Source: an uncultured Allomuricauda sp.
GTDB lineage: Bacteria; Bacteroidota; Bacteroidia; Flavobacteriales; Flavobacteriaceae
Direction: 5' to 3'
Length of the DNA stretch: 64,000 bases
NCBI RefSeq assembly: GCF_947501165.1
Contig: NZ_CANMUU010000002.1
Span: 496,001 to 560,000 of the forward strand
The translations under genes and the position numbers were made by a program. Positions 49,604 to 64,000 of this stretch are shown here, piece by piece. Within the stretch, counting starts at the first letter, position 1; each line of letters opens with the position of its first letter. The notes beneath the pieces were generated by a model that did not search any database, was not told the origin of the DNA, and saw only the letters and a list, made by a program, of their open reading frames with translations.

Positions 49604-50743
49604 ATGAGTAAACTATCAAGAAGACAATTCAACACAAAAATGACCAGAGGAGTGGGAGCAGTCACCATAGCTGCCTCATTGCCCATTAACTGTATAGTGG
49701 CCAATCCTTCTCAGAAGAAAAAATTAGGGGTTGCCCTTGTGGGTTTGGGGGGATACAGCACATACCAACTCGCTCCAGCACTTCAGGATACCGAGCATTG
49801 CTATCTTGCTGGAATTGTTACCGGAACTCCTTCCAAAGAACAAGTTTGGTCTGACAATTACGGTATTCCCAAGAAGAACATCTATAACTATGAGAATTTT
49901 GATGAAATAGTAAACAATGAAGATATTGATATTGTTTATGTGGTATTACCCAATAGCATGCACGCCGATTTCTGTATTAGAGCAGCAAAGGCTGGAAAGC
50001 ATGTGATATGCGAAAAACCTATGGCAATGAATGTTGAAGAGTGTGATGCTATTATTGATGCTTGTAAGGATGCCGGTGTGAAATTGGGAATGGGATACAG
50101 GTTGCATTCCGAACCCTATACCCAAGAAGTTAAACGATTGGTTAGGGAAAAGACTTTTGGGAAGGTCAATTTTGTAACGGCCGAAGCTGCTTATCGTTCA
50201 TTGGGCAGTCCCAATCAATGGAGGTTGGATAAAAAATTATCTGGAGGAGGTGCTTTAGTCAACATGGGAGTATATGCCATTCAGAGCCTAATTTATGGTA
50301 CAGGTGAAAACCCAATTTCAGTTTCTGCTCAAGAATTTAGCACGCGACCTAAATATTTCAAAGAAACGGATGAAACCATAACAGCCCAATTTGAATTCGA
50401 ATCCGGTGTGGTTGGCAACATGATGACCTCACATAACATTCGTGCGAACCGATTGTTCGGTTCCTGCGAAAGAGGTTGGTACGAACTTGACCCGGCTAGC
50501 ACATATATTCCTTTGGCGGGAAGAACTTCAAATGGTGAGCTCAATTTTGAACAAGAGAGCCAACAAAAACTCCAAATGGACGATTTCGCCAAACACATAC
50601 TTTTTGATACACCCAACCTTGCTCCTGGTGAAATGGGGAAACGGGATATGATGATTATAGCTGCGATTTATGCCTCTATCAAGAACGGTGGTACAAAACA
50701 ATCACTGAATTTTGAATCTAACTTTGGATTTGGGGTAAAGTAA
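49604..50743 (+). CDS. Gfo/Idh/MocA family oxidoreductase, Tat-exported
   Basis: A 379-residue NAD(P)-dependent oxidoreductase. The twin-arginine signal SRRQFNTKM is followed by a hydrophobic stretch (VGAVTIAASLPINCIVA). The Rossmann domain reads VALVGLGGYSTYQLAP, and the conserved EKP is in CEKPMAMNVEECD. The C-terminal alpha/beta domain has GGGALVNMGVYAIQS. It resembles periplasmic glucose-fructose oxidoreductase. Export by Tat means that the cofactor is bound before transport. Substrate unknown, probably a sugar. Confidence 0.92.
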   Translation: MSKLSRRQFNTKMTRGVGAVTIAASLPINCIVANPSQKKKLGVALVGLGGYSTYQLAPALQDTEHCYLAGIVTGTPSKEQVWSDNYGIPKKNIYNYENFDEIVNNEDIDIVYVVLPNSMHADFCIRAAKAGKHVICEKPMAMNVEECDAIIDACKDAGVKLGMGYRLHSEPYTQEVKRLVREKTFGKVNFVTAEAAYRSLGSPNQWRLDKKLSGGGALVNMGVYAIQSLIYGTGENPISVSAQEFSTRPKYFKETDETITAQFEFESGVVGNMMTSHNIRANRLFGSCERGWYELDPASTYIPLAGRTSNGELNFEQESQQKLQMDDFAKHILFDTPNLAPGEMGKRDMMIIAAIYASIKNGGTKQSLNFESNFGFGVK

Positions 50744-50909
50744 ATCTTGGGAAAAACTTGTTTCAAATGATTGTTTAGGTCTTGGTTATATCTTAAGATT
50801 AAAAAAAATGTAAATATTTGTAAATCAATTCATTAAATCTATTTGTATCAATATTTTGGGCAGTTCTCAGTAAACATTTTGATTCATTATTAAGACTTGG
50901 TTTAAATAA

Positions 50910-50931
50910 TAACATTCAATTAACCATTTAA
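50910..50931 (+). promoter_or_regulatory. Candidate operator, two 11-nt direct repeats
   Basis: TAACATTCAAT followed directly by TAACCATTTAA, two tandem units of 11 nt sharing TAAC at the same position, then an adjacent TTTAAC. The 11-nt spacing is that of Pho-box-type operators bound by PhoB-like regulators. Located ~70 nt before the -7 box of a PhoX-like gene. A candidate site only. Confidence 0.35.
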
Positions 50932-50998
50932 CTTTAAAATGAACTTTATTTTCATTTATAACCACATTTTGTTAACGAGGTGAACCTTACTACAGAAG

Positions 50999-51006
50999 TA
51001 CATTTG
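50999..51006 (+). promoter_or_regulatory. -7 promoter element of the PhoX-like gene
   Basis: TACATTTG, an exact TAnnTTTG match, about 47 nt before the ATG. A TTTG at 50968-50971 is the nearest upstream box but the spacing is somewhat long. Confidence 0.5.
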
Positions 51007-51052
51007 TTAAGAATCCTATAAAAACAAATTACTTTCTAAACCTTAAAAACAA

Positions 51053-52576
51053 ATGAGAACACTTAAAAATTTGTTGTTACTGTCCGGTTTGATAGCTGTA
51101 ACCTCATGCGATAAAATTGATGATTTTATCGGTGGTGGCGATGACGATGACCAACCCACAGGAACAATTTTTGAAAACAAATCAAACCTTGAACCTTTAG
51201 TAGCGATTACACCGCAATTCAACTTTGTCCAGGCTTATTCTTTAATAAGTTCAAGCGATGTCTTAGATGATGGCTTCCGTTTTGTTGGAGCTGCTGACGG
51301 AGCTGGACTTGTGAAAGATCCAAACAGTGATGGCTTCATCTACATGTTGAACGCTGAAGATGATTATGCAGTAGCTAGAATTGAATTGGATGCTAACTTG
51401 ACACCAACTGGTGGCCAGTGGGTTTTAAATTCTGGCGTAGCTGATTTTGCCCGTCAATGTTCCGGAACCATGTTACGTAAAGATGTTCACGGTGGTTCGC
51501 GTGACATTTATCTATCAGCTTCGGAAAGCTTTAATTACGATGTTAAGGGATTAGACCCTTACCAAACTAGCCCAACGCCAACCGCCGATTTCGGATTGGA
51601 TGCACTTGGTGAATTCCAATGGGAAAATGCTGTACCCCTTCCTATGTCTGCCTATATTGGTGAAACAGTAATTATTGGTGGAGATGATGATTCTAGTAAC
51701 TCTTTAGGACAAATCACATTGTATCACTCTACACACGGAGAGGCAGACTTAGAAGGAGGAGAGATTTACGTGATGAAAATTACTGAAATGTCTGATGGAA
51801 ATGGTGGTGTTGTTTCAGCGCCTGCTGACATGATAGTTGATGAAAGCATGTTGGACTTCGGGGTAACATATAGGTATGAGTTCGTGAAAATTGAAAATGG
51901 GGCCGCATTGACCAAAGATGAAATGGAAGACGCTTGTATCGCTGTTGGGGCCTCCGCTTTCATGAGAGTGGAAGATGTAGATTATAGAAAGGGTAATGCA
52001 GCGAATAACAGACAAGTATTTGTAGCCGTTACCGGTAGAGGCCCTGGAAGAGATACTTTCAATGATTGGGGTACTGCCTATAGAATGGATATGGATACAG
52101 ATAGCGCTCTTACAGGTTCCATTACACAAATTATTTCAGGTAATACAGATACCAACAATATGGACGGTAATCTACCTGAGCTTCAAAGTCCTGACAATAT
52201 TACTGTTACTGAAAACTTTATTTACCTTCAAGAAGATCCAAATTCTTTTTCTAGAGGTCATAACGCATATATCTATCAAACTGATTTGAATGGAAATAAT
52301 GCCAGAGTAGTTTTGGAGTTCGTTACGCGTCAGGATTTAGACCCAACAGGAAGCTCCGGCCCCAGTGGTGAATACGGCGCTTTAGAAGATATTTCTGATT
52401 TGGTTGGTGTTCCAAATACATTTTTGTTAAACCTTCAACCACACTATTGGGAAAGTGATGATTTTAAAGGAGTAGATGGTCACGACTTTGAAACCAGACC
52501 AGAGTTTGCGGCTGGAAGAGGTCGTGAGGATGATCAAGGCGGACAAGTTGTTATCCTAAGAGGCCTACCTAGATAA
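51053..52576 (+). CDS. PhoX-like (DUF839) alkaline-phosphatase-family lipoprotein
   Basis: A 507-residue lipoprotein (lipobox AVTSC, then a strongly acidic linker with GGGDDDD). The later part has PhoX-type landmarks: FMRVEDVDYRKG and SPDNITVTENFIYLQEDPN, the E-D and P-D-N segments that in PhoX coordinate iron and calcium. PhoX enzymes are secreted monoesterases for phosphate scavenging. The first ~200 residues are less similar, so activity is not certain. The gene is followed by a di-heme peroxidase lipoprotein gene. The operator-like repeat upstream is consistent with phosphate control. Confidence 0.7.
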   Translation: MRTLKNLLLLSGLIAVTSCDKIDDFIGGGDDDDQPTGTIFENKSNLEPLVAITPQFNFVQAYSLISSSDVLDDGFRFVGAADGAGLVKDPNSDGFIYMLNAEDDYAVARIELDANLTPTGGQWVLNSGVADFARQCSGTMLRKDVHGGSRDIYLSASESFNYDVKGLDPYQTSPTPTADFGLDALGEFQWENAVPLPMSAYIGETVIIGGDDDSSNSLGQITLYHSTHGEADLEGGEIYVMKITEMSDGNGGVVSAPADMIVDESMLDFGVTYRYEFVKIENGAALTKDEMEDACIAVGASAFMRVEDVDYRKGNAANNRQVFVAVTGRGPGRDTFNDWGTAYRMDMDTDSALTGSITQIISGNTDTNNMDGNLPELQSPDNITVTENFIYLQEDPNSFSRGHNAYIYQTDLNGNNARVVLEFVTRQDLDPTGSSGPSGEYGALEDISDLVGVPNTFLLNLQPHYWESDDFKGVDGHDFETRPEFAAGRGREDDQGGQVVILRGLPR

Positions 52577-52597
52577 GCCTGAACAAAACAGTTTACT

Positions 52598-52630
52598 AGA
52601 CCTCTGTCGAAAGATGGGGGTCTTTGTTTA
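52598..52630 (+). terminator. Weak terminator-like hairpin between the PhoX-like and peroxidase genes
   Basis: An 8-bp stem (AGACCTCT with GGGGGTCT, two G-U pairs) and a 10-nt loop followed by TTGTTTA. It lies after the PhoX-like stop and might reduce, not block, read-through into the peroxidase gene. Confidence 0.45.
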
Positions 52631-52644
52631 TCAAAAAAAATGCT

Positions 52645-54486
52645 ATGAAGTACCGTATTGTATTTGTCATCTTTTTTTCCATATTGATTGTTTCATGTAG
52701 ACAAGCTCCAAAGGAAAAGGAAATTGTGAAGACCCAAAATAATTCCAATGGAATTAACTGGACGGCTGCGCAAGATTACTATTTGGCCAATATGTCAGAA
52801 GCTCTTGATTACTTGAGTGAATTGGATTCGCTTCCAATGACTGGCGATGCTACTAAAGAAGCTTTTAGAAAAGCTAGAATTTCCTTCAAAAAAGCTGAAC
52901 CCTACGGATCTTATCTTAATCCTGAAGTAGGTCATAAGGCCAATGGACCTGCTTTACCTACTGTAACGGACGATACGCAAAAACTACTGCCTCCGGTTGG
53001 ATTCCAAAAAATTGAAGAAAGTATTTATAATGGTGAGGAATCTGAAGAAAACTACAGATATGAGGTTTCTATAACAAAAGGAATGCTCCGTAACTTACAA
53101 CACAATATTCAGAAAAGGGAATTGACCCCGCAACGTTTTTTCATAGCCACCCATCAACAATTAATGCGAATTGTAAGTTTAGGTATTTCTGGATTTGATA
53201 CCCCAGTAAGTCAATTAGGCCTAGGGGAAACCGTTGTTTCCTTACAAGGTTTGGCTGATGTCTATCAATTGACCCTAAAAGACATTATTCAAGAAAAAAA
53301 TAAGACTCTAGATTCAACTTTTTTGGAATCCATCAAATTGGCTAAAGAATTCATTGGAGACAATCCTGACTTTGAAACTTTCGACCGATTCACCTTTCTC
53401 AGAGATTATATGAATCCCGTTACCCGTAATTGGGTAAATATTAGAAAGACTTCAAATATCTGGGACCCTGTGGATAACAAGCCTTTTAATTTTGATGCCG
53501 ACACCTTTTTTGATGCGGATGCTTTTAACCTTGAGTTTTTTGCTCCCATAACTAATCAGAATCCTAGTGAGGAAAAAATAGAACTTGGAAGAAAACTCTT
53601 TTTTGACAAAAAACTATCCCAAAAGGGAGATATGGCCTGTGCGACATGTCATAGCCCCAAAAAAGCATGGGCAGATGGTCTTGTGGTCAATATGGGCAAT
53701 GACAAGAAGGAACTGGACCGCAATACTCCAACTTTAATTAACTCTGCTTATCAGCAAGCATTTTTTTGGGATGGACGTGCCCCTAGCATAGTGGCACAAA
53801 TTACCGCCGTGTTCAATAACGATAGAGAGTTTAACAGTTCGGTTCATAAATTCTCCACAGAAATTCTTACTGATACCACATATATAAAATTGTTTGAAGA
53901 GGCCTATGGAGGTATTTCAAAAAGGAATACAGAAGTAATCAAGGCGATTTCATCATATATTTCCACCTTGAATGGATTTAATTCCAAATTTGACAGGAAT
54001 ATTCGTGCCGAGGAAGTGACATTTACCAAAGAGGAAAAGCTAGGATTTAACTTGTATATGGGAAAAGCGCTATGTGCCACTTGCCATTTTATTCCATTAA
54101 CCAATGGTACCGTTCCTCCATTTTTTACCGGCCATGAAAAGGAAGTAATTGGTGTTCCTGAAACAGCTGCCAATAGGGAGTTAGATGATGATTTGGGTTT
54201 TTACTGGCGGCATAACGAAGAATTGGAAGTACATAGAGGAATGTTCAAAACTCCAACAGTACGTAATTCGGAACTCACCGCACCCTATATGCACAATGGG
54301 GTTTACAATACGTTGGAAGAGGTAATGAATTTTTATAATCTTGGAGGAGGAGGAGGAATGGGCTTTGACCTTCCCTATCAAACGCTGCCATTTGATAACC
54401 TCCAACTCACAAAAGAGGAAGAGAAAGCATTGGTTGCATTCATGAAAACCTTAACCGATACAAATGTAGGGGAGGAGGTATACTAG
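52645..54486 (+). CDS. Di-heme cytochrome c peroxidase (MauG/CcpA family) lipoprotein with long N-terminal domain
   Basis: A 613-residue lipoprotein (signal FFSILIVSC). The C-terminal half is a di-heme peroxidase: CxxCH hemes at C332-A-T-C335-H336 and C477-A-T-C480-H481, the NTPTLINSAYQQAFFWDGRA segment and ELTAPYMHNGVYNTLEEV. The N-terminal ~280 residues are helical and unusual for this family; helical bundles of this sort occur fused to such peroxidases in Bacteroidota. The enzyme would reduce peroxide or oxidise a protein partner at the outer face. ATG 52645 was chosen over an upstream TTG (52624). Its neighbour is PhoX-like. Confidence 0.9.
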   Translation: MKYRIVFVIFFSILIVSCRQAPKEKEIVKTQNNSNGINWTAAQDYYLANMSEALDYLSELDSLPMTGDATKEAFRKARISFKKAEPYGSYLNPEVGHKANGPALPTVTDDTQKLLPPVGFQKIEESIYNGEESEENYRYEVSITKGMLRNLQHNIQKRELTPQRFFIATHQQLMRIVSLGISGFDTPVSQLGLGETVVSLQGLADVYQLTLKDIIQEKNKTLDSTFLESIKLAKEFIGDNPDFETFDRFTFLRDYMNPVTRNWVNIRKTSNIWDPVDNKPFNFDADTFFDADAFNLEFFAPITNQNPSEEKIELGRKLFFDKKLSQKGDMACATCHSPKKAWADGLVVNMGNDKKELDRNTPTLINSAYQQAFFWDGRAPSIVAQITAVFNNDREFNSSVHKFSTEILTDTTYIKLFEEAYGGISKRNTEVIKAISSYISTLNGFNSKFDRNIRAEEVTFTKEEKLGFNLYMGKALCATCHFIPLTNGTVPPFFTGHEKEVIGVPETAANRELDDDLGFYWRHNEELEVHRGMFKTPTVRNSELTAPYMHNGVYNTLEEVMNFYNLGGGGGMGFDLPYQTLPFDNLQLTKEEEKALVAFMKTLTDTNVGEEVY

Positions 54487-55247
54487 AATTTCTCGAATAC
54501 TCCCAGTCCAAAAAGCGCAAAATCATATTTAACTGGATCCAATGGGTCCAGTTTTTTTAGCTTTTTATCAAGTTCCTCTAGGGCTTTGGCATCATTTTGT
54601 TTTCTCTTTATAAGTTTTAGCTTTCGAGCAACATTTCCTGAATGTACGTCCAGTGGACAGGACAATTGACTGGGTTTTAGGGTCTTCCATAGACCGAAGT
54701 CCACACCAGCTTTGTTATCACGCACCATCCACCTGAGAAACATGTTTATGCGCTTGGCGGCTGAGCCTTTACTAGGGTCCGAAACATGTTTTTCTGTTCT
54801 TTTGAGATGGGGTAGTTCAAAAAAAAGACTTTTGAATTCTCTTATGGAATTCTGTAACGATTGTACTTGTTGATTTTTAGAAAATACCGACTCCAATCCG
54901 CCATGTTTGGAATAAATCTGCCCTAGCCCTTGAATAAAAAAAGATAAATCCTCCCCATTAAAAGTTCTGTGCACAAAGGAACGCAACGAATCTAAATCTT
55001 TTTGAATGTGGTTACTTATGAAATCGTGAGGTGCTTGATCCAATAGCTCCATCAATCTAGAGGCATTATTGATGATGCTTTTTCGATTTCCCCAAGCAAT
55101 AGTGGCTGTCAAAAAAGCGCTGATTTCTATATCCTCCTTTTTTGAAAATCGATGGGGGATTTGTAGCGGGTCATCCTCTAAAAACTTTGGGTTTTCATAG
55201 AATGCAGCTTTTTCATCCAAGAATTCTTTGAGTTCCGCTTTGGTCAT
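54483..55247 (-). CDS. TIGR02757 (DUF2400) family protein
   Basis: A 254-residue protein of a family conserved across Bacteroidota and some other phyla, of unknown function. Opening TKAELKEFLDEKAAFYENPK and the later DNKAGVDFGLWKTLKPSQLS, then CPLDVHSGNVARKLKLI are hallmarks. It overlaps the peroxidase stop by four bases (convergent). Next on the strand is a LolD-like ATPase gene 10 nt upstream, suggesting an operon. No catalytic residues recognised. Confidence 0.88.
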   Translation of the reverse strand: MTKAELKEFLDEKAAFYENPKFLEDDPLQIPHRFSKKEDIEISAFLTATIAWGNRKSIINNASRLMELLDQAPHDFISNHIQKDLDSLRSFVHRTFNGEDLSFFIQGLGQIYSKHGGLESVFSKNQQVQSLQNSIREFKSLFFELPHLKRTEKHVSDPSKGSAAKRINMFLRWMVRDNKAGVDFGLWKTLKPSQLSCPLDVHSGNVARKLKLIKRKQNDAKALEELDKKLKKLDPLDPVKYDFALFGLGVFEKF

Positions 55248-55257
55248 AAATAAAAAA

Positions 55258-55920
55258 TCAAGAAACTATAAGACCATCTACCATAGTCAACTTTCTATCA
55301 GCCATATTGGCCAATTCTGAATTGTGGGTGACCAAAATAAAGGTTTGTCCAAATTCATCTCTCAGTTGAAAGAAAAGTTTATGAAGCCTATCCGCACTTT
55401 CAGAATCCAAATTACCACTGGGTTCGTCTGCAAAAATCACAGAAGGATTATTGATAAGTGATCTAGCCACAGCCACGCGTTGTTGTTCTCCTCCGGAAAG
55501 TTCGCTGGGTTTATGCGAATATCTATCGGTCAAATCAAGAAAATCCAAAAGCTCTTTAGCTCGCTTCTCTGCTTCAGGTTTTGGAGTTTTTTTAATAAAG
55601 GCAGGAATGCAAACATTTTCCAAAGCATTGAATTCTGGTAGTAATTGATGAAACTGAAAAATAAAACCAATATGTGCATTTCTGAACCGCGCCAATTCCT
55701 TATCTGTGAGTTCTGTAACATCCACATTGTTGATAAGCAGGGAGCTATCTTTCAAATTTGAAGGGGAATCCAAAGTTCCCAAAATTTGAAGTAATGTGGT
55801 TTTACCTGCTCCCGAAGCCCCTACAATGGATACCACTTCTCCTTTATCAACTGATAAATCAACTCCTTTTAGGACATCGAGGTCACCAAAGGATTTTTTA
55901 ATGTTCGTAGCCTTAATCAT
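55258..55920 (-). CDS. lolD: ABC transporter ATP-binding protein, LolD-like
   Basis: A 220-residue ATPase with Walker [14 protein letters not shown]-loop [12 protein letters not shown], signature [14 protein letters not shown] and Walker [14 protein letters not shown]. The [14 protein letters not shown] segment is characteristic of LolD, which drives lipoprotein release from the inner membrane, or of MacB-like exporters. No LolC/E permease gene is adjacent, which is common in flavobacteria. The gene lies upstream of the TIGR02757 gene and divergent from msrA. Confidence 0.85.
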
Positions 55921-56079
55921 AGGTATACTTTGGATAGGTGAAAGTAATCATTCCGAATGAGAGCCAAAAGCTGAAAATTTGAAAAGAAGGTTTTTAGATT
56001 TTTACCGACAAATTAAGGATAAACAATGACGTTTTGTGATATTGTAGAACCAAGAACTTTGTTTAATTTTATAATTAGG

Positions 56080-56640
56080 ATGGATAAACAAAATAATTCA
56101 ACAGATGCGATTGCAATTTTTGCTGGAGGATGCTTCTGGTGTACCGAAGCTGTTTTTCAAAGATTGGATGGTGTAAAAGAAGTAATTTCAGGATATACTG
56201 GAGGAGCTATTAAGAATCCGGCATATCGAGAAATTTGTACAGGTAGAACGGGGCATGCAGAGGCTGTTAAAATAGTATATGATGCTTCCAAGGTTTCGTA
56301 CACGGAGCTTTTGGAGGTTTTTTTCGCCACACACGACCCCACCACGCTAAATCGACAAGGTAATGATGTGGGCACACAGTACAGGAGCGAGATTTTTTAC
56401 ACTTCGTCAGAGCAAAAAGCACAAGCAGAAGGCTTTATTTCTTTACTGGAGGAAGAGAGGGTTTTCGGTTCTCCTATAGTTACTGCTATTTCGGAAGAGA
56501 AACCTTTTTATAAGGCTGAAATTGAGCATCAAAACTACTACAATGATAACAAGATGCAACCGTACTGTCAGTTTATCATTAACCCCAAATTAAAGAAGCT
56601 AAATCAGCATTTTTCAAACAAATTAAATACGGCCCAATAG
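56080..56640 (+). CDS. msrA: Peptide-methionine (S)-S-oxide reductase
   Basis: A 186-residue repair enzyme that reduces methionine-S-sulfoxide in proteins. Catalytic cysteine in the signature GGCFWCTEAVFQ; YTGGAIKNPAYREICTGRTG is the conserved loop and THDPTTLNRQGNDVGTQYRS, then EIFYTS are the next. ATG 56080 preferred over ATG 56026 because the family begins a few residues before the signature. Only MsrA is present; no msrB in the window. Confidence 0.95.
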   Translation: MDKQNNSTDAIAIFAGGCFWCTEAVFQRLDGVKEVISGYTGGAIKNPAYREICTGRTGHAEAVKIVYDASKVSYTELLEVFFATHDPTTLNRQGNDVGTQYRSEIFYTSSEQKAQAEGFISLLEEERVFGSPIVTAISEEKPFYKAEIEHQNYYNDNKMQPYCQFIINPKLKKLNQHFSNKLNTAQ

Positions 56641-56851
56641 TTAATTGTTAGTAAAGCTTTGCCTTGGTTATGGAAGCATTGCTTGTCTGAATAGTGATGT
56701 GTGGGGTATAAAACAAAATTCGGTAAGAAAAACTTCTGGATTCATGTACCGGTTTGAAAAGATTGAGACCCGAAATGAATTTCAAAAGCTTATTAACTCC
56801 GATTTGCCCTAACTATTTTTCTCTTTCATACTGTTTTGCTATTTTTCAGCA

Positions 56852-57133
56852 ATGGCGAAAGAAAATAAATCAAAGTATCAGGACTTATTTTTGGGATTAT
56901 TATTTGATGGTATTGGTATGCTATCCTTTGCAATACCTGGAATAGGGGAGTTCTCCGATGTTATTTGGGCTCCGCTTGCAGGTTGGCTAATGACCCGAAT
57001 GTATAAAGGGAAAATGGGTCAGGTTGCCGGAGTGGTCACATTTATAGAGGAATTAGTGCCAGGATGGGATTTTGTCCCCAGTTTTACCTTAATGTGGTTA
57101 TATACCCACCTTTTCTCCAAAAGAAAAAAATAA
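56852..57133 (+). CDS. Small conserved membrane protein
   Basis: A 93-residue protein with hydrophobic stretches near residues 13-30 (LGLLFDGIGMLSFAIPG) and 65-85 (VPSFTLMWLYTHLFS). A central region reads WAPLAGWLMTRMYKGK, and the C-terminus is a basic KRKK. Function unknown; similar short proteins occur in other flavobacteria as far as I can tell. An overlapping frame starting at 56754 was rejected. A terminator lies at its stop. Confidence 0.7.
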   Translation: MAKENKSKYQDLFLGLLFDGIGMLSFAIPGIGEFSDVIWAPLAGWLMTRMYKGKMGQVAGVVTFIEELVPGWDFVPSFTLMWLYTHLFSKRKK

Positions 57134-57157
57134 GGGAGCCAACAATGGGCTCCCTTA
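57131..57157 (-). terminator. Terminator hairpin between convergent genes
   Basis: Perfect 10-bp stem TAAGGGAGCC / GGCTCCCTTA with a 7-nt loop. On the minus strand it is followed by a T-run (complement of the A-run at 57124-57130), so it ends the lipoprotein gene; it overlaps the stop of the plus-strand membrane protein. Confidence 0.8.
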
Positions 57158-57207
57158 TACGGAAAACTAACAAACCTCACGTTTGTTTTTTTCAAACTAA
57201 ACATGAT

Positions 57208-57843
57208 TTATTGAATCGTCAAATCAAAAGTTAGATTAAAATCAGCATCACCATCCTCAGAAGTAGAGGTGGCTGTTTTTACAGCAGTATCGTTTACAGG
57301 CGGTTGGTGCTGCAATCTCGCTGTAAAAGTACCCATAGTTGTACCTGTGGCTGCAGTGGTCCAATTTGTACTTAAACCTACTGGGTTGCCATTATCATCC
57401 GTATCATTGTAGTTTATGGCACCTGTAGCAGGAGCAATATTACCGGTACCTGTTGGACTATCAAAAGCACCATCGGTAAAGCTAAAGAAGAATTGGTGTT
57501 CATCATCTTCCTCCAATATTTCTTCACCTATATCTTCTATATCATCCGGATCTAAAGCGTTAAAAATCACAAAGGTCAAAGTATATTGGGTGTCGGCCGC
57601 TAGGGCGATTCCACCTTGTACTTGTAATGGTGTTATACCTTCTCCATCTGGATCTATGGCTGTGGCAGTTATTACATCCATAGGGTCGGCATTGTTTGTA
57701 AATTGCAAAGTCACACTGGTGATAACCTCCAACTCTTCTTCTTCTTCAGGGGCATCATCATCATCACTACAGCTTACCACCATAACGGATAGAAATAAAA
57801 TGGCCAATAGCCTTACATTCTTGAGTGTTTCAATCGTTTTCAT
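57208..57843 (-). CDS. Acidic lipoprotein encoded with the TonB receptor
   Basis: A 211-residue lipoprotein: signal ending at FLSVMVVSCS followed by an acidic stretch (DDDDAPEEEEELE) that is typical of surface-exported Bacteroidota lipoproteins. The mature domain is beta-rich, with Ca-loop-like EDDEHQFFFSF and IDPDGEG turns. I recall such proteins after TonB-dependent receptor genes, often labelled type 1 periplasmic binding fold, without experimental support. It follows the receptor gene by 117 nt. It may be the surface-exposed partner of the receptor. Confidence 0.75.
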   Translation of the reverse strand: MKTIETLKNVRLLAILFLSVMVVSCSDDDDAPEEEEELEVITSVTLQFTNNADPMDVITATAIDPDGEGITPLQVQGGIALAADTQYTLTFVIFNALDPDDIEDIGEEILEEDDEHQFFFSFTDGAFDSPTGTGNIAPATGAINYNDTDDNGNPVGLSTNWTTAATGTTMGTFTARLQHQPPVNDTAVKTATSTSEDGDADFNLTFDLTIQ

Positions 57844-57960
57844 TTTTCTTTTTTTAAAGGTTTTATTATGTTAAGATTTAAAATTGTTCGTAAAGTTACT
57901 GTTGATTTTTCATTTAACCATGTTTTTGCAACTGAGTTGCATTAACATTTTTGTTTTTCA

Positions 57961-60378
57961 TTATCTTTTTTTTGCTTTAAATGAATAGTTCAGGGTAAAT
58001 AGTATATTTCTACCGGGTTCATCCGCATAGTATCTCAAATCGTTAAGATAATTACGGTAACTAGTGTTTAAAAGATTGTTTGCGCTAATACTGGCGCTTA
58101 GACTTTTCCAATCGAAATTCCAAGTCAAATCCAAAAGAAAGTAGCCTTCAGGAGGGTCCAGGAAATCAAAAATTTCAGAATCGGTTGTAATTATCGCAGA
58201 ACCATCAGCTAAACTTTGTGGGGATATCGTTCGCGGTGCTTGAAACTGTTCAAAGGTATAACTGGGCCTTAAACTGAGGCGAGACGAATCCATAAACCAT
58301 AATTTGCCTTGATTCCATTGCAGTTCAAAACTTGTTGATATAGGAGGTTGATTTATTAAAGGTTCATCATCCCCAATGTTTCTTGACCATAAATAACTGA
58401 ACCCAAAAATTCCTGAGATTCGCTCGGTCCATTCACTTTTCCAAGTATAGTCCACGCCTAGAAAGAGTGCATCTGCTTGGTCAAAGAAAAATGCAGTATT
58501 GGGCCCTCTAATGCCTCCGAAAACACCTAAAGGCCTATCAAACACATAGTTGTCAATGTAGTGGGAATAGAAGGTGATATTGTGAGAATTGCCCTTTTTA
58601 TAGGTTTGGAATTCGTTTACGAATTTATATCCTCTCTCTGGTTCTACTCCACTGTCTTCCAAGGTAGTGACTTCACTGGTACTTGGGGTACCATCATTGT
58701 CCGAAAATCGTAAGAGACCAAAGATGGTCTCAACACCTTGTTGTCCAAAACTAAATAATTCATAGACATTCGGCGTACGCCAGGCGGTTCCAATATTGCT
58801 TCTAAATGTACTATTGGTACCAAGTTGGCGGATATAGCCTAATGAAAGGGTAAGATTGGTAAAACTGTAATTATCCCGAAATATATCTTGATTGGTCTCC
58901 CTTCCCCTAACATCGTTGGTTTCAAAATCAAACCTAAGCCCTGCTTCCAAGGTATTGTTGCCGAAACTAAAATTCTCAACGGCAAAAGCACTATACCTAT
59001 CCGTATTGTAATTGGGAATGAAAGGAGTAGTTTGGGTACCAGGATTATTGTCGTTGTTTTGACTAAAATATTGTATACCTATAAGACCATCTAAGCCATT
59101 CCATTTGGGATGCTCCCATTCCAACTGATAATCATAGGTAAGCAAATCAAGGTCTATGATGGGCAATTCGGAGTTTCTACGTACATCAAATTCGTCTCTT
59201 TTATTGAGCTGAACGCCACCTCTAAACGTTAGTTTTCCTTCATCGGAATACCACCAATTTATCTCTGCTTTAGCCAAATGGTGTTGAACCGTTTGATTTG
59301 GCACATCGATATTATAAGAAAAGGGTTGTATAATCAAGGGTCTATCCGTATTGATAGCTCTGATAAAATTATCTGGACTGGTTTGAAATGTAGCCCTTAG
59401 TAAGGCTAAATTTTGATCAATAAAGCTGTATTGCAATTTAAAGTCCCAATTTTCTAGATGTCTAAGGACCCCAAAACTGAAAGCTTTTTCTTCTTTCCCT
59501 GAATTGGTCAAATTGTAATCTGGTGCATTGCGGTCACCAATCTTTGCGAAGCTTCCGTTGAGAAAATAACTCCAATTTTCAGTACCGTTTCCAATTTCCA
59601 AATTGGCATTATAGCCCCTGCCGTTGGTTTGATAACCCGTACCGATGTTTGCATAAAGCGGATTGTTCAATAGCAAGGGGTTGGATTCTACAATAATAGC
59701 TCCACCCAGTGCCTCGGGACCAAAACGTACACCTGCTGCTCCCTTAACAACTGTAATGTTATTTGCAGAGTTTATGTCTATTTCAGGGGCATGGTCTCTA
59801 CCCCAATTTTGAAAACCATGTTTGAGGCCATTATTTAAAACGAGGATACGATTGCCATAAAGCCCGTGGATAACCGGTAATTCTACATTTGTACCCGTAG
59901 ATGTGAAGGTAACTCCTTGGATAGTGGATAGTGCACTGGCCAGAGATTGTGTTGGGTCGCTCACAATATCTGCCTTATTTACTTTTACTTGAGAAATGGT
60001 CTCGGTACCTTTTTCCTTTCTTTTTTCTGCCTGAATGGTAACTTCATCCAGACCTACGAGCTTCGGGGTTAAAAATATATTTGGAATTGAGCCGTGTTCA
60101 TGTCTATGTTCACTTGTAGCTTCCGAATATCCTAAGCTCGAGATAACCAGTGTGTTCACATCAGAGCACAAGCCTTCCAGATAAAAACTACCATCTTTTT
60201 TGGTAAGGGTATATTTTTCTGAGCCTTTTACTTTAACCGTGACATAAGGTATGGGTGCTTTAGTTTCTGCATCCAGAATCTTTCCATGTATCGAGTGTGT
60301 ACAAGGCTTACTTTGAGCACATGTGAAGAACGAGACAAGTAAAAATACTAAAAAGGTTAATTGAGGCCTTAGCTTCAT
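57961..60378 (-). CDS. TonB-dependent receptor with carboxypeptidase-like N-terminal domain
   Basis: An 805-residue outer-membrane receptor. Signal peptide (FLVFLLVSFFTCAQ), then a CarboxypepD_reg-like domain (~25-110, IHGKILDAETKAPIPYVTVK). The plug follows (~130-240, with LASALSTIQGVTF, then GLYGNRILVLNNG and GAAGVRFGPEALGGAII), then a 22-strand barrel to the C-terminus (ILFTLNYSFK). The N-terminal region has a histidine cluster (HRHEHGS), and the operon partner upstream is His/Cys-rich. This supports a metal cargo, by inference. It is not a SusC, as no SusD gene follows. Confidence 0.9.
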   Translation of the reverse strand: MKLRPQLTFLVFLLVSFFTCAQSKPCTHSIHGKILDAETKAPIPYVTVKVKGSEKYTLTKKDGSFYLEGLCSDVNTLVISSLGYSEATSEHRHEHGSIPNIFLTPKLVGLDEVTIQAEKRKEKGTETISQVKVNKADIVSDPTQSLASALSTIQGVTFTSTGTNVELPVIHGLYGNRILVLNNGLKHGFQNWGRDHAPEIDINSANNITVVKGAAGVRFGPEALGGAIIVESNPLLLNNPLYANIGTGYQTNGRGYNANLEIGNGTENWSYFLNGSFAKIGDRNAPDYNLTNSGKEEKAFSFGVLRHLENWDFKLQYSFIDQNLALLRATFQTSPDNFIRAINTDRPLIIQPFSYNIDVPNQTVQHHLAKAEINWWYSDEGKLTFRGGVQLNKRDEFDVRRNSELPIIDLDLLTYDYQLEWEHPKWNGLDGLIGIQYFSQNNDNNPGTQTTPFIPNYNTDRYSAFAVENFSFGNNTLEAGLRFDFETNDVRGRETNQDIFRDNYSFTNLTLSLGYIRQLGTNSTFRSNIGTAWRTPNVYELFSFGQQGVETIFGLLRFSDNDGTPSTSEVTTLEDSGVEPERGYKFVNEFQTYKKGNSHNITFYSHYIDNYVFDRPLGVFGGIRGPNTAFFFDQADALFLGVDYTWKSEWTERISGIFGFSYLWSRNIGDDEPLINQPPISTSFELQWNQGKLWFMDSSRLSLRPSYTFEQFQAPRTISPQSLADGSAIITTDSEIFDFLDPPEGYFLLDLTWNFDWKSLSASISANNLLNTSYRNYLNDLRYYADEPGRNILFTLNYSFKAKKR

Positions 60379-60510
60379 TATAATGAAATAGAAAAAAATA
60401 GTTCAAAATCGTTTGTTTATTAAGATGAGGAAAAACAGTAAGCAAGGATTGCTTAAACGGTAATTCTTGTTTAACCTATGGTAATCCTCAATTGATTGAT
60501 TTTTGAATTT

Positions 60511-60810
60511 TTATATTAAAGGAGGAGGTCTACAAAAGAGATGATTAAATTTGGAATCATAAAAGAATACAGGTGAAGTAAAATCTGCAGTCTCTTGAGA
60601 AATGATCAATTGAAAGATATCAATTGGTATAGGTTGTGGAATGTCTACATTGGAAGTTTGGTTATCCAATACAATATCACAGATTTCACAATTTTCTATT
60701 GAGTCACAATCATCGTAATGATCATGCGTGTAAACATGGAAAGCTGAAACTTTCAAGAGCATTAGCCCAATAAAAAATAAAAGACCTAAAGTCTTCTTTT
60801 CCTGCAACAT
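60511..60810 (-). CDS. Small His/Cys-rich exported protein upstream of the TonB receptor
   Basis: A 99-residue protein with an N-terminal hydrophobic signal (LGLLFFIGLMLLKVSAF) followed by FHVYTHDHYDDCDS and IENCEICDIV. These form a compact metal-ligand cluster of His, Asp and Cys (HxDH, CxxC). It precedes the TonB receptor on the same strand by 132 nt. Similar small proteins occur in this position in related genomes as far as I recall; a role in metal sensing or capture is an inference. Confidence 0.7.
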   Translation of the reverse strand: MLQEKKTLGLLFFIGLMLLKVSAFHVYTHDHYDDCDSIENCEICDIVLDNQTSNVDIPQPIPIDIFQLIISQETADFTSPVFFYDSKFNHLFCRPPPLI

Positions 60811-60861
60811 GCTGCAAATCTATGTAAATTGATAGAGTAAATAATGTTAATAAAACTATAA

Positions 60862-61380
60862 TTAGGGGATTAGGAACCCTAAACCCATACGCTTGAGCAT
60901 TTTTTTCTCAAAATTCCAGAAAAATGCGAATTGACCAAACAACCATCCAAAGAAAACCAAGAGTACTTGATAAATGGGAAAGATAAGTAGGATACGGACT
61001 GTCCAAAAAATCCAATTATTAGTTGTTCCTTGCTTTAGGCCTATCAGTTCGGTTAAAGGACCAGCCAACTTTCCCGAAATGCTTCCAGTAATGGCAAAGA
61101 CAATGAAGATGGCAATCATTTCCCAACGTTCTTCAACAGGCCATTTTTTTGATAATTTTTTAAAACTCCACAGAAAAAACTTTACCATTATATAATATCC
61201 TATAGCACCCACTCCAAGAGTAAAAAACCATTCAAAAAATGTATTATCAAGGTCAAAAAGATGTAGTAATCGTCTTGAGATTAAATACGAAGTAATTGCA
61301 GTCAAAATGACTCCAAGTATTGGGAACAGTAGTTGCCAGTTTTGGGAAATATCCCACCGTCTTTTAATTTTCTCCATCAA
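60862..61380 (-). CDS. DUF6787 family membrane protein
   Basis: A 172-residue protein with four hydrophobic segments (LFPILGVILTAITSYLI, FTLGVGAIGYYIMVKF, MIAIFIVFAITGSISGKLAG and VRILLIFPIYQVLLVFFGWL). The opening KIKRRWDISQNWQLL and the WEMIAIFIVFAITGS block match the DUF6787 family found in flavobacteria. Function unknown; some databases label these diacylglyceryl transferase, but the catalytic motif of Lgt is not present. A second ATG one codon in (61377) is equally possible. Confidence 0.7.
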   Translation of the reverse strand: MMEKIKRRWDISQNWQLLFPILGVILTAITSYLISRRLLHLFDLDNTFFEWFFTLGVGAIGYYIMVKFFLWSFKKLSKKWPVEERWEMIAIFIVFAITGSISGKLAGPLTELIGLKQGTTNNWIFWTVRILLIFPIYQVLLVFFGWLFGQFAFFWNFEKKMLKRMGLGFLIP

Positions 61381-61407
61381 AGTAAATTCGATGGCAAAAA
61401 TAGTATA

Positions 61408-61866
61408 TTAAATTCTTGGAATGAACGGGCCAAGACGTTGGTTGTACTTTCTCTGAAAAAAAATAAAATAGTTGTAGAGTTTGTAGTTAACCTCATAACC
61501 ATAATCTATTCCAGTCCTGTAATCAATTTCGAACTGATACAACTGAGGATCAAAATTGAAAGGCTGCTGAACGCGTATATTCCAATTTGTTACCAAGATT
61601 TTATTTCTGTTTTCAAGAAATTGTTGGGAATAGAAGCCTTCAGGAAGGGCAATGCTTTTTAACCAAGCATTAAAACCAGGTTCAAGAATCATTATTTCAT
61701 ATTCGGTTTTTTCATCCGATATTTCGACGGGGTCATCATCTTCCAACTCAAAATAGGCTTTCTCCTCTTTAGAAATATTCAAAGAGTCTTTTTGCGAAAA
61801 TGTTTGCAAAGTGAAAAAAATGCATATTCCTATTGGAATGCATTTAATTAGGTTTTTCTTTTTCAT
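61408..61866 (-). CDS. DUF6146 family secreted protein
   Basis: A 152-residue protein with a signal peptide (CIPIGICIFFTLQTFSQ) and an acidic linker (FELEDDDPVEISDE). The conserved core EYEIMILEPGFNAWLKS and LPEGFYSQQFLENRN define the DUF6146 family; a Tyr-rich end YQFEIDYRTGIDYGYEVN closes it. Found in flavobacteria and of unknown function. The DUF6787 gene follows on the same strand after 27 nt. Confidence 0.8.
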   Translation of the reverse strand: MKKKNLIKCIPIGICIFFTLQTFSQKDSLNISKEEKAYFELEDDDPVEISDEKTEYEIMILEPGFNAWLKSIALPEGFYSQQFLENRNKILVTNWNIRVQQPFNFDPQLYQFEIDYRTGIDYGYEVNYKLYNYFIFFQRKYNQRLGPFIPRI

Positions 61867-61880
61867 ACATCAAAAGATAC

Positions 61881-61910
61881 AAAAAAAGCCATTTGAAAAA
61901 TCAAATGGCT
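61881..61910 (-). terminator. Terminator downstream of the DUF937 gene
   Basis: Perfect 10-bp stem AGCCATTTGA / TCAAATGGCT (arms 61887-61896 and 61901-61910) with an AAAA loop; on the minus strand the hairpin is followed by a T-run. Confidence 0.8.
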
Positions 61911-61934
61911 GTGTTAAAATGAGTTAAGGAATTC

Positions 61935-62573
61935 TTACTTTCCAAAAAGACCTCCAAGCAGTCCTCCAAGGCCACCACTTTTCTGACCTCCACTGTTCAA
62001 GACCATGCCAGCTAAGTCATCAATCACGCTGCCATCACCATCAGAATCCAGAAAAGATTCAATTAGAGATTGCTCCTTTTGGGTATTGCTCCCTCCCATA
62101 AGTCCGCCTAAAAGACCAGTCAAGGCATCGGGACTGCTAAGGTTCTGTTGTTTAGTTTGTTTACCCAAATATCCAAGAACTATAGGTGCTGCTATTTTAA
62201 GAATTTGCGAAATAGAACCCGCATCAATACCGGACTTGCTGCTCAAAGCATTTTCTACTTGTGGTTGCTTGGTTCCGAATACATGTCCCAATATACCTGC
62301 TCCATCATCCATAACCCCTTGGTCAACACCACCACCGAAAAGACCTCCCAAATCATCTAAAATACTTCCATCATGCTTTGAAGATAAGGCATTCATAAGT
62401 CCTTGTGCACCTCCTGGGGTTGAGGCGTTTTTTTTCATCGCTCCCATAAGCAATGGCATAGCCATGCTAAGAACATCGGCCGTTTGGTTCTCTGATTGTC
62501 CTGTTTGTCCGGCAACCCCGCTTATCAATTGTTTGCCCATAGGGCTATTCAGTAAATCTAATAATCCTGACAT
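61935..62573 (-). CDS. DUF937 domain-containing protein
   Basis: A 212-residue Gly/Ser/Leu-rich protein. It opens MSGLLDLLNSPMGKQLISGV and has two similar halves with QVENALSSKSGIDAGSISQI and VIDDLAGMVLNSGGQ; the end GGLGGLLGGLFGK is almost pure Gly/Leu. DUF937 proteins are related to YidB. Function unknown. Cytosolic by lack of signal. A terminator follows its stop. Confidence 0.88.
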   Translation of the reverse strand: MSGLLDLLNSPMGKQLISGVAGQTGQSENQTADVLSMAMPLLMGAMKKNASTPGGAQGLMNALSSKHDGSILDDLGGLFGGGVDQGVMDDGAGILGHVFGTKQPQVENALSSKSGIDAGSISQILKIAAPIVLGYLGKQTKQQNLSSPDALTGLLGGLMGGSNTQKEQSLIESFLDSDGDGSVIDDLAGMVLNSGGQKSGGLGGLLGGLFGK

Positions 62574-62647
62574 TTTAAAAAGTGTTTAGTATGAAATGGT
62601 AATGTACAAAAAAGAAGGAATACCCAAACGGATTGCTTAAAAACACT

Positions 62648-63604
62648 TTAATTTAAGAGTGTAATTATTTGAGTGGCCAACTCCAAACCAATTCTATCCT
62701 GAGCTTCATTTGTAGAGGCACCAATATGAGGGGATAACGATATCTTGGGATGCATTAAAATCTTGATTTCCGGATTGGGTTCGGACTCAAAAACATCAAG
62801 TCCTGCAAATGCCAGTTTTTCCGAATTCAAGGCTTCAACTAAAGCTACTTCATCTATAGTGCCACCTCTTGAAGCATTGACAATTCCTGCGCCTGCTTTC
62901 ATCATGTCGTATTCTTTTTTGCCCAAAACATAGCCATTTTTTTGAGCAGGTACATGAATGCTAATGAAATCAGATTGTTTTAAAAGTTCTTCCAATTTGG
63001 ATGCAGCCAATTTGACGGTAACAGATTGCCCATCAAAAAAATCTAGAGTCAAATCCGCCTCTTTATGATGATGGTCGTTAAAAAGTACTTTCATCCCCAT
63101 TCCAAGACCCATTTGAGCCGTGGCTCTGCCTATTCTTCCAAAACCTATAATACCCAAGGTTTTACCTTTGAGTTCATGACCTTTTGCGTATCCCTTTTTA
63201 AGCTGTTTAAAATTACTGTCGCCCTCCAAAGGCATATCTCGATTGGCGTTATGCAAAAAGCGCACGCCATTAAGCAAATGTCCAAAAACCAACTCTGCTA
63301 CGGATTGCGATGAAGATGCTGGTGTGTTGATCACATGGATTCCTTTGGATTTGGCATAGTCCACATCAATATTATCCATACCAACACCACCACGTCCAAT
63401 TAACTTTAGTCCAGGACATGCATCTATCAATGATTTTGTCACTTTGGTTGCGCTTCTGACCAAAAGAACACTAATTTCATTTTGGTTGATGTAATTTTCA
63501 AGTTGCTCCTGAGCAACTTTGGTAGTATTTACTTCAAACCCTTTTTTTTCCAATGCATCAATCCCAGATTGGGAGATACCATCATTGGCCAAAACTTTAT
63601 GCAT
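62648..63604 (-). CDS. serA: D-3-phosphoglycerate dehydrogenase
   Basis: A 318-residue D-2-hydroxyacid dehydrogenase, the first enzyme of serine synthesis. NAD-binding GIIGFGRIGRATAQMGLGMG, the R-G-G-V-G-M-D-N site in LIGRGGVGMDNIDV, the catalytic His in SPHIGASTNEAQ, and ASRGGTIDEVALV. It lacks the ACT domain of E. coli SerA, so it is the short type. ATG 63604 was selected over 63628, which overlaps the serC stop. It follows serC after one base. Confidence 0.9.
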   Translation of the reverse strand: MHKVLANDGISQSGIDALEKKGFEVNTTKVAQEQLENYINQNEISVLLVRSATKVTKSLIDACPGLKLIGRGGVGMDNIDVDYAKSKGIHVINTPASSSQSVAELVFGHLLNGVRFLHNANRDMPLEGDSNFKQLKKGYAKGHELKGKTLGIIGFGRIGRATAQMGLGMGMKVLFNDHHHKEADLTLDFFDGQSVTVKLAASKLEELLKQSDFISIHVPAQKNGYVLGKKEYDMMKAGAGIVNASRGGTIDEVALVEALNSEKLAFAGLDVFESEPNPEIKILMHPKISLSPHIGASTNEAQDRIGLELATQIITLLN

Positions 63605-63605
63605 A

Positions 63606-64000
63606 TTATCCTTTTTTCTCCAATTCACTCATAATGTCAACAAGCACACCGACACTTTCCAAAGACATGGCATTATACATAGATGCACGATAGCCACCAA
63701 CGGAACGGTGCCCATTGATGCCATTAATTCCGGCTTCCTTACACTTTTCATCGAAAAGCTCCTTTAAGGTATCATCTGTGATGTTGAATGTAGCGTTCAT
63801 TGTTGAGCGATCTTCTTTGGCCGCGAATCCTGAAAAAACGGGATTTAATTCAATTTCAGAATAAATGAGATTGGCTTTCTTCTCATTAATCTCTTCAATG
63901 GCGGCAATGCCTCCCAAGTCTTTCAACCACTGTAAAGTGAGCATGGAAACATAAACTGCAAATACCGGTGGAGTATTGAACATACTATCTTTTTCTGCAT
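63606..64000 (-). CDS. serC: 3-phosphoserine aminotransferase, C-terminal part (5' end outside window)
   Basis: The frame is open to the right edge (residues before the internal Met read AEKDS), so only the last ~131 residues are present. FNTPPVFAVYVSMLTLQWLK and MNATFNITDD, then HRSVGGYRASMYNAM match SerC, which turns 3-phosphohydroxypyruvate into phosphoserine. The gene is followed by serA with a one-base gap, forming the usual serine operon. Confidence 0.93.
   Translation of the reverse strand, partial: AEKDSMFNTPPVFAVYVSMLTLQWLKDLGGIAAIEEINEKKANLIYSEIELNPVFSGFAAKEDRSTMNATFNITDDTLKELFDEKCKEAGINGINGHRSVGGYRASMYNAMSLESVGVLVDIMSELEKKG

Follow-up and report, generated by a model that had tools for sequence, protein, structure and literature searches.

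A putative zinc-uptake locus of an uncultured Allomuricauda sp. headed by a candidate ribosome-arrest leader

Overview of the Locus

The DNA analyzed here (the window) is a stretch of 64,000 nucleotides (nt) from an uncultured Allomuricauda sp. of the Flavobacteriaceae (RefSeq assembly GCF_947501165.1, contig NZ_CANMUU010000002.1, positions 496,001 to 560,000 of the forward strand), whose genome assembly comprises 3.73 Mb and is 99.99% complete. Three minus-strand genes at window positions 57208-60810 encode a small protein with an export-type N-terminus, a TonB-dependent receptor that resembles the zinc receptor ZnuD, and a lipoprotein. Sequence comparison indicates that this is very probably a zinc-uptake locus, and we hold with only slightly less assurance that the small gene is an arrest leader, a class already known. 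The reading as a whole, a zinc-uptake unit of ZnuD-like receptor and lipoprotein with the arrest leader as its switch, appears likely. That zinc is also the metal sensed by the leader has the odds slightly on its side. Zinc is favored because of the ZnuD fold of the receptor and its aligned ligands, a Zur-type operator, and the zinc-type genes found in the neighborhood of related receptors.

A preliminary description of this DNA, made from the letters alone, had presented the trio as a metal-uptake locus for zinc or copper. The three genes were confirmed as open reading frames (ORFs), and metal uptake is supported by the ZnuD likeness, the operator and the neighbors; the same evidence singles out zinc and leaves copper the less likely metal. 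The main features of the locus are:

60511-60810, minus strand: leader ORF, 99 amino acids, with a hydrophobic N-terminal export-type segment, a His/Cys/Asp cluster, CEIC, and the ending RPPP-LI-stop
60679-60690, minus strand: CEIC codons (residues 41-44), the conserved CxxC
60520-60531, minus strand: RPPP codons (residues 94-97), a RAPP-like motif of proposed arrest function, separated from the stop by two residues
60379-60510, minus strand: leader-receptor intergenic region, 132 nt, the would-be place of attenuation
57961-60378, minus strand: ZnuD-like TonB-dependent receptor, 805 amino acids, with an N-terminal CarboxypepD_reg extension
59791-59796, minus strand: D195-H196 codons of the receptor, aligned pairwise with Asp-99/His-100 of ZnuD
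57927-57941, no strand: perfect palindrome TGCAACTCAGTTGCA (TGCAAC-N3-GTTGCA), candidate Zur box, 83 nt upstream of the start of the lipoprotein gene
57208-57843, minus strand: partner lipoprotein, 211 amino acids, with a predicted beta-rich fold

Scanning of species genomes yielded 86 relatives, of which 80 were kept. The receptor-locus set comprises 79 relatives (L026, whose receptor is cut at the contig start, was dropped), or 80 loci with the window. Labels of the type L026 denote loci of relatives or of the home genome, the latter including L121, L176, and L177.

The Leader ORF

The motifs HDHYDDCDS and CEIC, to which the preliminary description had drawn attention, are present in the small ORF as residues 29-37 and 41-44. 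The Arg of its C-terminal RPPP lies 53 residues past the first Cys of the CxxC. ORFs of 60-160 amino acids with RxPP within 25 residues of their end were found upstream of the receptor in 31 of the 79 loci, versus 13 among 1457 other mechanically defined ORFs of the same loci; at least one of the 48 leaderless loci (L080) has upstream DNA too short to judge. These 31 leaders end in RPPP (15), RGPP (14), or RAPP (2). They were gathered irrespective of CxxC, which occurs in 25 of them, the six others being RGPP forms. A leader search gave matches in 42 of 60 genomes of the genus (E ≤ 1, weak matches included) and in 52 of 199 of the family (E ≤ 0.001). The genus and family leaders considered here are the best matches with loci returned (58 loci), not every match, and 54 of the 58 yielded by script a leader with CxxC and RxPP. 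L146 (CxxC-RPPP distance 55) and L151 (55, counted by hand) are near contig ends and outside the position filter, L120 kept RPPP and lost one Cys, L160 ends in LPPP, and L009 in KPPP.

Including the window, 81 distinct leaders were assembled: 65 with RPPP, 14 with RGPP, and 2 with RAPP. The collection demanded RxPP, plus CxxC in the genus and family sets, and the presence of the motifs is therefore partly by construction, but their distance is not. The spacing from CxxC to Arg is 53 (26 leaders), 54 (20), or 55 (19) residues in all 65 RPPP leaders, and 47-50 in the ten RGPP/RAPP leaders that have a CxxC. L141 is the sole leader with two CxxC, at 54 and 51. In 74 of the 81, RxPP is found 1-4 residues from the stop. 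The only other unvaried residues of 32 aligned leaders (chosen for RPPP) are Lys20, C41, and C44, with His29 and Gln51 nearly so; the linker and most of the His/Cys/Asp cluster are unconserved, and a hydrophobic N-terminal stretch is visible in the alignment of the 32. In L094, a genome of the same genus as the window, the leader does not differ from the one in Flagellimonas sp. 389 (L011), which makes Flagellimonas/Allomuricauda the probable genus. No Pfam or NCBIfam model matches the window leader at E ≤ 1.

Inspection by eye found the same type of leader also before other receptors, before ABC-2 transporters, and once before the lipoprotein alone; in L141, an RPPP leader stands 183 nt ahead of a protein that by eye starts like the lipoprotein family. 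The fixed CxxC-RPPP distance, the unconserved linker, and the varied downstream genes fit a regulatory upstream ORF of the CruR/CutF type. The small His/Cys protein had been taken for a metal-binding working part of the system, a view that the spacing and the variety of downstream genes speak against. A stable periplasmic metal-binding partner in a three-part uptake system would account for the export-type N-terminus with its His/Cys/Asp cluster and for the position upstream of the receptor at those 31 loci. We consider it unlikely since the cluster and linker drift while CxxC, RPPP and the distance between them are kept, and since the protein is missing beside many receptors and precedes other transporters. 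In addition, no CruR peptide was detected by proteomics (PMC9426467) and exported CutF is rapidly degraded (PMC9973294).

Comparison with Known Arrest Leaders

The arrangement recalls the CruR-BfrG (CrtA)-bp2921 operon of Bordetella pertussis (PMC9426467), in which a small exported CxxC leader with a RAPP-type end is followed by a TonB receptor after an intergenic region of 162 bp (132 nt here), and where the CxxC-motif distance is likewise fixed. In CruR, RAPP is required for receptor expression and CxxC for the copper response, the C90-R139 distance is 49, and a five-residue change of the spacing strongly weakened the response; copper is proposed to relieve the arrest, after which Rho ends transcription (PMC9426467). 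The CruR arrest was later demonstrated in vitro (PMC12992588). The window leader differs in having RPPP rather than RAPP, a distance of 53-55 in its family, and no DUF2946 match. Its receptor is ZnuD-like, the third gene codes a lipoprotein instead of PepSY_TM, and the metal would be zinc.

A RAPP/RGPP census found exported leaders, small and ending in an arrest motif as proposed for the window, ahead of TonB receptors and described their occurrence in Gram-negative bacteria as universal (PMC12992588). Only RAPP and RGPP entered that count, which would leave out RPPP leaders. Mutants in the same report bear on the RPPP variant: replacement of RAPP by RPPP in ApdP gave near wild-type arrest in B. 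subtilis (2.4 vs. 1.9 units) and partial arrest in E. coli (491 vs. 152), and RPPP in ApdA gave partial arrest (PMC12992588). RPPP has also been sought in E. coli and B. subtilis proteins (PMC10987492). The CutF-CutO system shares the exported small protein, a Cys motif, and a C-terminal proline-rich stall-like motif; a catalogue of CutF-like proteins holds 5,334 entries, 19% of them from Bacteroidota, with TonB-type genes among the neighbors (PMC9973294). In the presence of copper, CutF increases the expression of a copper oxidase (PMC9973294). The downstream gene is here an uptake gene, hence the polarity expected is that of CruR, unlike CutF. Searches of the open-licence literature brought up no zinc-linked leader.

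The ZnuD-Like Receptor

The 805-residue receptor has CarbopepD_reg_2, Plug, and TonB_dep_Rec_b-barrel domains, all above cut-off. The SusC/RagA model reaches 51.9 bits against a cut-off of 368.25, bearing out the earlier statement that the receptor is not of the SusC type; likewise no SusD-like or siderophore gene was seen among the translations of 50000-64000, for which no model was run. The best phmmer match of the receptor is ZnuD, which also ranks first by both Foldseek and VIA-align (Z 36.9, 581 residues, 2.4 Å). The closest solved fold is thus that of ZnuD of Neisseria meningitidis (PMC4557270; 4RDR, 4RDT, 4RVW), from which the window receptor differs by its sequence (~19% identity), its CarboxypepD_reg extension, and its dedicated lipoprotein. 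The match to the ZnuD family model NF038289 of NCBIfam (56.1 bits) does not reach the curated cut-off of 950.

The zinc ligands reported for ZnuD are Asp-99, His-100, Glu-340, and His-499 (PMC4557270). After conversion of chain to paper numbering by counting, the first two align with D195-H196 of the window receptor. H196 is present in 80 of the 80 aligned receptors and D195 in 67; Glu-340 fell outside the aligned stretches. H171, H187, and E199 are, like H196, unvaried in all 80. The cluster HRHEHG, pointed out earlier, exists (residues 91-96) but is weaker evidence than claimed: it sits in the carboxypeptidase-like N-terminal extension (residues 30-115), outside plug and barrel, and varies among the relatives.

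Candidate Zur Operator

Exact inverted repeats were searched without a preset motif in the 300 nt before leaderless receptors. The top repeat was TGCAAC-N3-GTTGCA, exact in four loci. With one mismatch allowed, the 300 nt before the 80 operons hold 21 sites of spacer 3 and at most one of any other spacer. The same palindrome and spacer were published as the predicted Zur box of Desulfovibrio, ATGCAACNNNGTTGCAT (PMC545781); as presented there it precedes znuABC-zur, whereas the Bacteroidota copies precede receptor, lipoprotein, and other genes. A search for an operator upstream of position 60810 had been suggested. No perfect site exists there, and the one of the window lies instead before the lipoprotein, at 57927-57941; L020, L021, and L023 carry a perfect site in the same receptor-lipoprotein position.

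The home genome holds four perfect sites, and up to one mismatch is found in 11 places (2 for the reversed pattern). One is that of the window. The three others adjoin metal-homeostasis genes: one separates MerC-FolE from a MacB-type ABC operon that includes a Fur gene, one is before a cluster of DUF6660, receptor, Fur, and P-type ATPase genes (L177:4660-10002, contig C2), and one before the gene of a His-rich lipoprotein (L178:6809-7267) whose ZrgA score of 20.4 bits is below the threshold of 27.4. At the first of these (L176:4819-9236, contig C1), MerC and FolE diverge from the MacB-type operon, which also contains two small CFFCG proteins and the Fur gene, around a single perfect site; this is probably the core zinc regulon. 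The small Cys/His DUF6660 protein of L177 likewise has a terminal PP motif (LQPPQSIG).

Thirty perfect-site loci (29 from the family and one from the home genome, up to 1.5 kb on each side) were screened with small models of our own: 14 have a Fur, MerC, FolE, cobW, or receptor neighbor and 16 have none, two of the latter preceding DUF6660-like genes as judged by eye. No perfect site occurs in 67 of 100 family genomes, and just 3 of 59 genus and family leader loci hold an operator (≤1 mismatch) within short flanks. A different small His/Cys protein that ends in xPPP, with no Arg, precedes the receptor in L046, L049, L050, L051, and L057; in L050 a perfect operator is located 45 nt before it.

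Two other candidate operators were discarded. TTATGTT-N6-AACATAA before the leader has three mismatches in its window copy (own count) and its left half overlaps the end of the DUF6787 gene in this genus; TGCAAC-N3-GTTGCA was preferred. The sequence TGCAGCATGTTGCA at the leader start codon, with one mismatch and spacer 2, was not counted as an operator.

Genes Adjacent to the Receptors

On either side of the receptor, as many as two ORFs were collected from each of 57 loci with long flanks, and the 204 proteins were scanned with Pfam in two parts, 112 picked partly by hand and then the remaining 92. The families encountered were FUR (at least 15), GTP cyclohydrolase I (11), MerC (9), cobW (at least 5), PRA-CH (at least 3), ABC_tran (at least 9), TonB Plug (9, second part), DUF3526 (4), and the LCIB carbonic-anhydrase type (3). 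Zinc-starvation regulons typically contain extra FolE, HisI, and COG0523 proteins. Two adjacent Fur proteins were compared with solved structures, and the nearest structure for one of them is E. coli Zur (7.8e-10).

A Fur gene is present within 1.6 kb in 1 of 29 loci with a leader versus 16 of 38 without (p 2e-4), and the operator is found upstream of the operon in 3 of 32 loci with a leader versus 17 of 48 without (p 0.009), neither test being corrected for relatedness between loci whose clades differ. These counts are only suggestive of a leader that excludes a nearby Fur gene and an operator upstream of the operon.

The Partner Lipoprotein

A relative of the lipoprotein adjoins the receptor in 78 of the 80 loci, downstream in 68 and upstream in 9 (the L052 group); that of L060 overlaps the matched stretch. 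In the two loci without one, the contig ends 4 and 1 nt downstream. The two genes form a dedicated pair with conserved synteny, of which searches of the open-licence literature brought up no description. Conservation of the trio had been suggested as a check; it holds for this pair and does not extend to the leader, upstream of only 31 of 79 receptors.

The lipoprotein has a hydrophobic start, Cys25, and the acidic run CSDDDDAPEEEEE. Cys25, His116, Gln117, Asp147, Asp149, His179, Lys189, and Asp201 are unvaried among the 78. At least 64 of 75 lipoproteins have three or more acidic residues after the lipid Cys, a crude count and a lower bound, as an earlier Cys was sometimes taken. We take such a run to resemble the surface-export signal of Bacteroidota lipoproteins. 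The acidic start noted in the preliminary description is real, but it looks like an export-type signal rather than a metal site. The AlphaFold model shows a confident beta-rich domain (mean pLDDT 89.4) for which Foldseek gave no match to a solved structure at E ≤ 0.001. RhoGDI, the best match of VIA-align, was rejected as its fold, the Z of 7.4 being inside the range deemed uninformative. No Pfam or NCBIfam family matched the lipoprotein over cut-off.

Copper, Heme, and the Evidence Opposing an Arrest-Controlled Zinc Locus

A locus that handles copper, in the manner of the CruR-BfrG/CrtA operon, is improbable, slightly more so than a three-part system. The copper receptor OprC is among the next folds (Z 34.0 vs. 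36.9 for ZnuD) and carries at D195-H196 the same two residues in reverse order, His-Asp; the Asp-His order of the window is that of ZnuD, and the operator and neighbors are of zinc type. Import of heme or of a different iron compound, the lipoprotein serving as hemophore, is very improbable: the TonB-hemin and hemoglobin models score 94-96 bits and ZnuD itself is called homologous with haem receptors (PMC4557270), but these scores are far under the cut-offs of 316.85 and 323.75 bits, the lipoprotein matches no family, and neighbors and operator indicate zinc.

Several observations weigh against a zinc locus switched by an arrest leader. As to the metal, a CxxC leader with RAPP senses copper in CruR (PMC9426467), which also favors the copper alternative. 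The heme-receptor models outscore the ZnuD model among the NCBIfam matches, all of them far below cut-off. The profile of the receptor family places 9gbc, a TonB-linked receptor, above ZnuD by way of the N-terminal extension and plug. The His aligned with ZnuD His-499, found in 62 of 80 receptors, is replaced by Q547 in the window, and the second adjacent Fur protein is slightly nearer to iron Fur than to Zur (1.6e-7 vs. 5.4e-7). The higher density of the operator in operon-upstream regions and receptor-lipoprotein gaps (30 sites in 30.4 kb) than elsewhere (45 in 990 kb) favors zinc, but it was counted in the same loci that yielded the motif and is hence partly circular. Less circular support comes from the perfect sites of the 79 loci, 24 in number: 8 precede the receptor or the lipoprotein, and 12 of the other 16 stand ahead of MerC, Fur, COG0523, or ABC genes, as judged by eye from the starts of the proteins.

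As to the leader, its presence at only 31 of the 79 loci means that the receptor does not need it. Such leaders also stand before receptors whose metal is unknown and, in L115, before a gene that by eye resembles alanine racemase, and the leader on its own thus gives no indication of the metal. DUF2946 (PF11162) matches none of 17 leaders at E ≤ 1 and nothing genome-wide at E ≤ 10. ApcA tolerates no change at the Ala of RAPG, and a RAPP-like motif alone is said to be insufficient for arrest (PMC12992588). The intergenic region 60379-60510 has no significant fold (z -0.39), 30 intergenic regions have a mean z of -0.72 and no consistent RNA structure (five are below -2.3, the window not among them), and no clear terminator is present between leader and receptor; the window hairpin AAGCAATCCTTGCTT is not listed as one. 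RNA structure as the switch is unsupported by these z scores. In 16 paralogous regions (L099-L114, alignment A5), small hairpins are seen by eye ~20 nt after the leader stop; they differ in sequence, precede another receptor type, and might be a conserved structure.

Proposed Mechanism

In the zinc-uptake reading that we favor, the receptor would import zinc, free or as a small chelate, across the outer membrane with TonB energy. The lipoprotein, probably on the cell surface, would help, and its unvaried His and Asp residues may capture zinc or hand it over. The nascent chain of the leader would be exported, its CxxC/His cluster binding the metal, and its C-terminal RPPP would stall the ribosome shortly ahead of the stop codon. 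If the switch works as in CruR, scarce zinc would permit the stall and with it expression of the downstream receptor gene; zinc, when present, would bind the chain leaving the ribosome or translocon, the stall would be relieved, and receptor expression would stop. The lipoprotein gene may be additionally under its own candidate Zur operator. The unit would then have two inputs, cytoplasmic zinc via Zur and metal at the nascent chain.

A bolder reading, for which we give somewhat less than even chances, is that the outer-membrane zinc receptor of the Flavobacteriaceae is no longer under direct Zur control and answers instead to a nascent exported arrest peptide that senses zinc beyond the cytoplasm, with RPPP as a widespread motif. 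At arrest the CxxC would be 53-55 residues from the peptidyl-transferase center, roughly the estimated length of exit tunnel and translocon together, and the metal site would just reach the periplasm. The periplasm, the compartment filled by the receptor, would control the receptor, and Zur the lipoprotein and other zinc genes; receptor, lipoprotein, and an ABC-2 transporter (see below) would form one arrest-controlled regulon, split here into two operons with twin leaders. If true, zinc would join the metals controlled by ribosome-arresting leaders, RPPP would be one motif variant spread through the Flavobacteriaceae, and a candidate Zur box for Bacteroidota would be named. A lipoprotein family of unknown role would gain a context, as it travels with a zinc-type receptor, and control of outer-membrane import from the periplasm rather than the cytoplasm becomes testable.

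A Second Leader and the ABC-2 Operon

Further features of the home genome are:

60815-60850, minus strand: promoter element common to both home leaders (TTAACA-N22-TAGATTTG), its end 4 nt from the leader ATG
L121:6262-6570 (C2:1168261-1168569): second home leader, with RPPP, heading an ABC-2 operon
57130-57158, minus strand: terminator-like hairpin 3′ of the lipoprotein gene, 11 pairs followed by a T run

The operon of the second leader codes an ABC ATPase, two ABC-2/DUF3526 permeases, and a DUF5916 protein. The same four genes (58-85% identity) follow the lipoprotein gene on the same strand in L010, L016, L020, L021, L066, and L085. The leader-receptor-lipoprotein-ABC-2 cluster of these six relatives is present here in two parts, each with a leader and the same promoter; given its arrangement in the relatives, each home leader probably serves one piece of a single importer. 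A counterpart by gene type is the Zur regulon of Caulobacter crescentus (PMC4176598), which includes the zinc TonB receptors ZnuK, ZnuL, and ZnuM and the ABC-2 system znuGHI beside znuK. Its Zur box is different, and the passages on these genes mention no partner lipoprotein or arrest leader.

The leader starts 4-8 nt past a Bacteroidota-type TAnnTTTG box in 21 of 57 leaders, versus 28 of 606 other ORFs, and 18 of these 21 have TTAACA at the same upstream distance (counted by eye). Of eight matches of a looser pattern, TTAACAT...TAGATTTG pairs occur only at the two home leaders. TTAACA before the lipoprotein was dismissed as a conserved element, being found in 5 of 27 only.

Other Features of the Window

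The hairpin at 57130-57158 is the strongest of five found, where 3.7 (sd 2.0) are expected by chance. Genes for DUF6787 and DUF6146 proteins (60862-61866, minus strand) lie just upstream of the leader, which makes a longer transcript possible; DUF6787 also accounts for 7 of the first 112 neighbor proteins, being close to the receptor in a number of relatives. Farther away, a large acidic lipoprotein-like protein is encoded at 51053-52576, before a CxxCH protein (52624-54486, plus strand) that by eye resembles a di-heme cytochrome c peroxidase.

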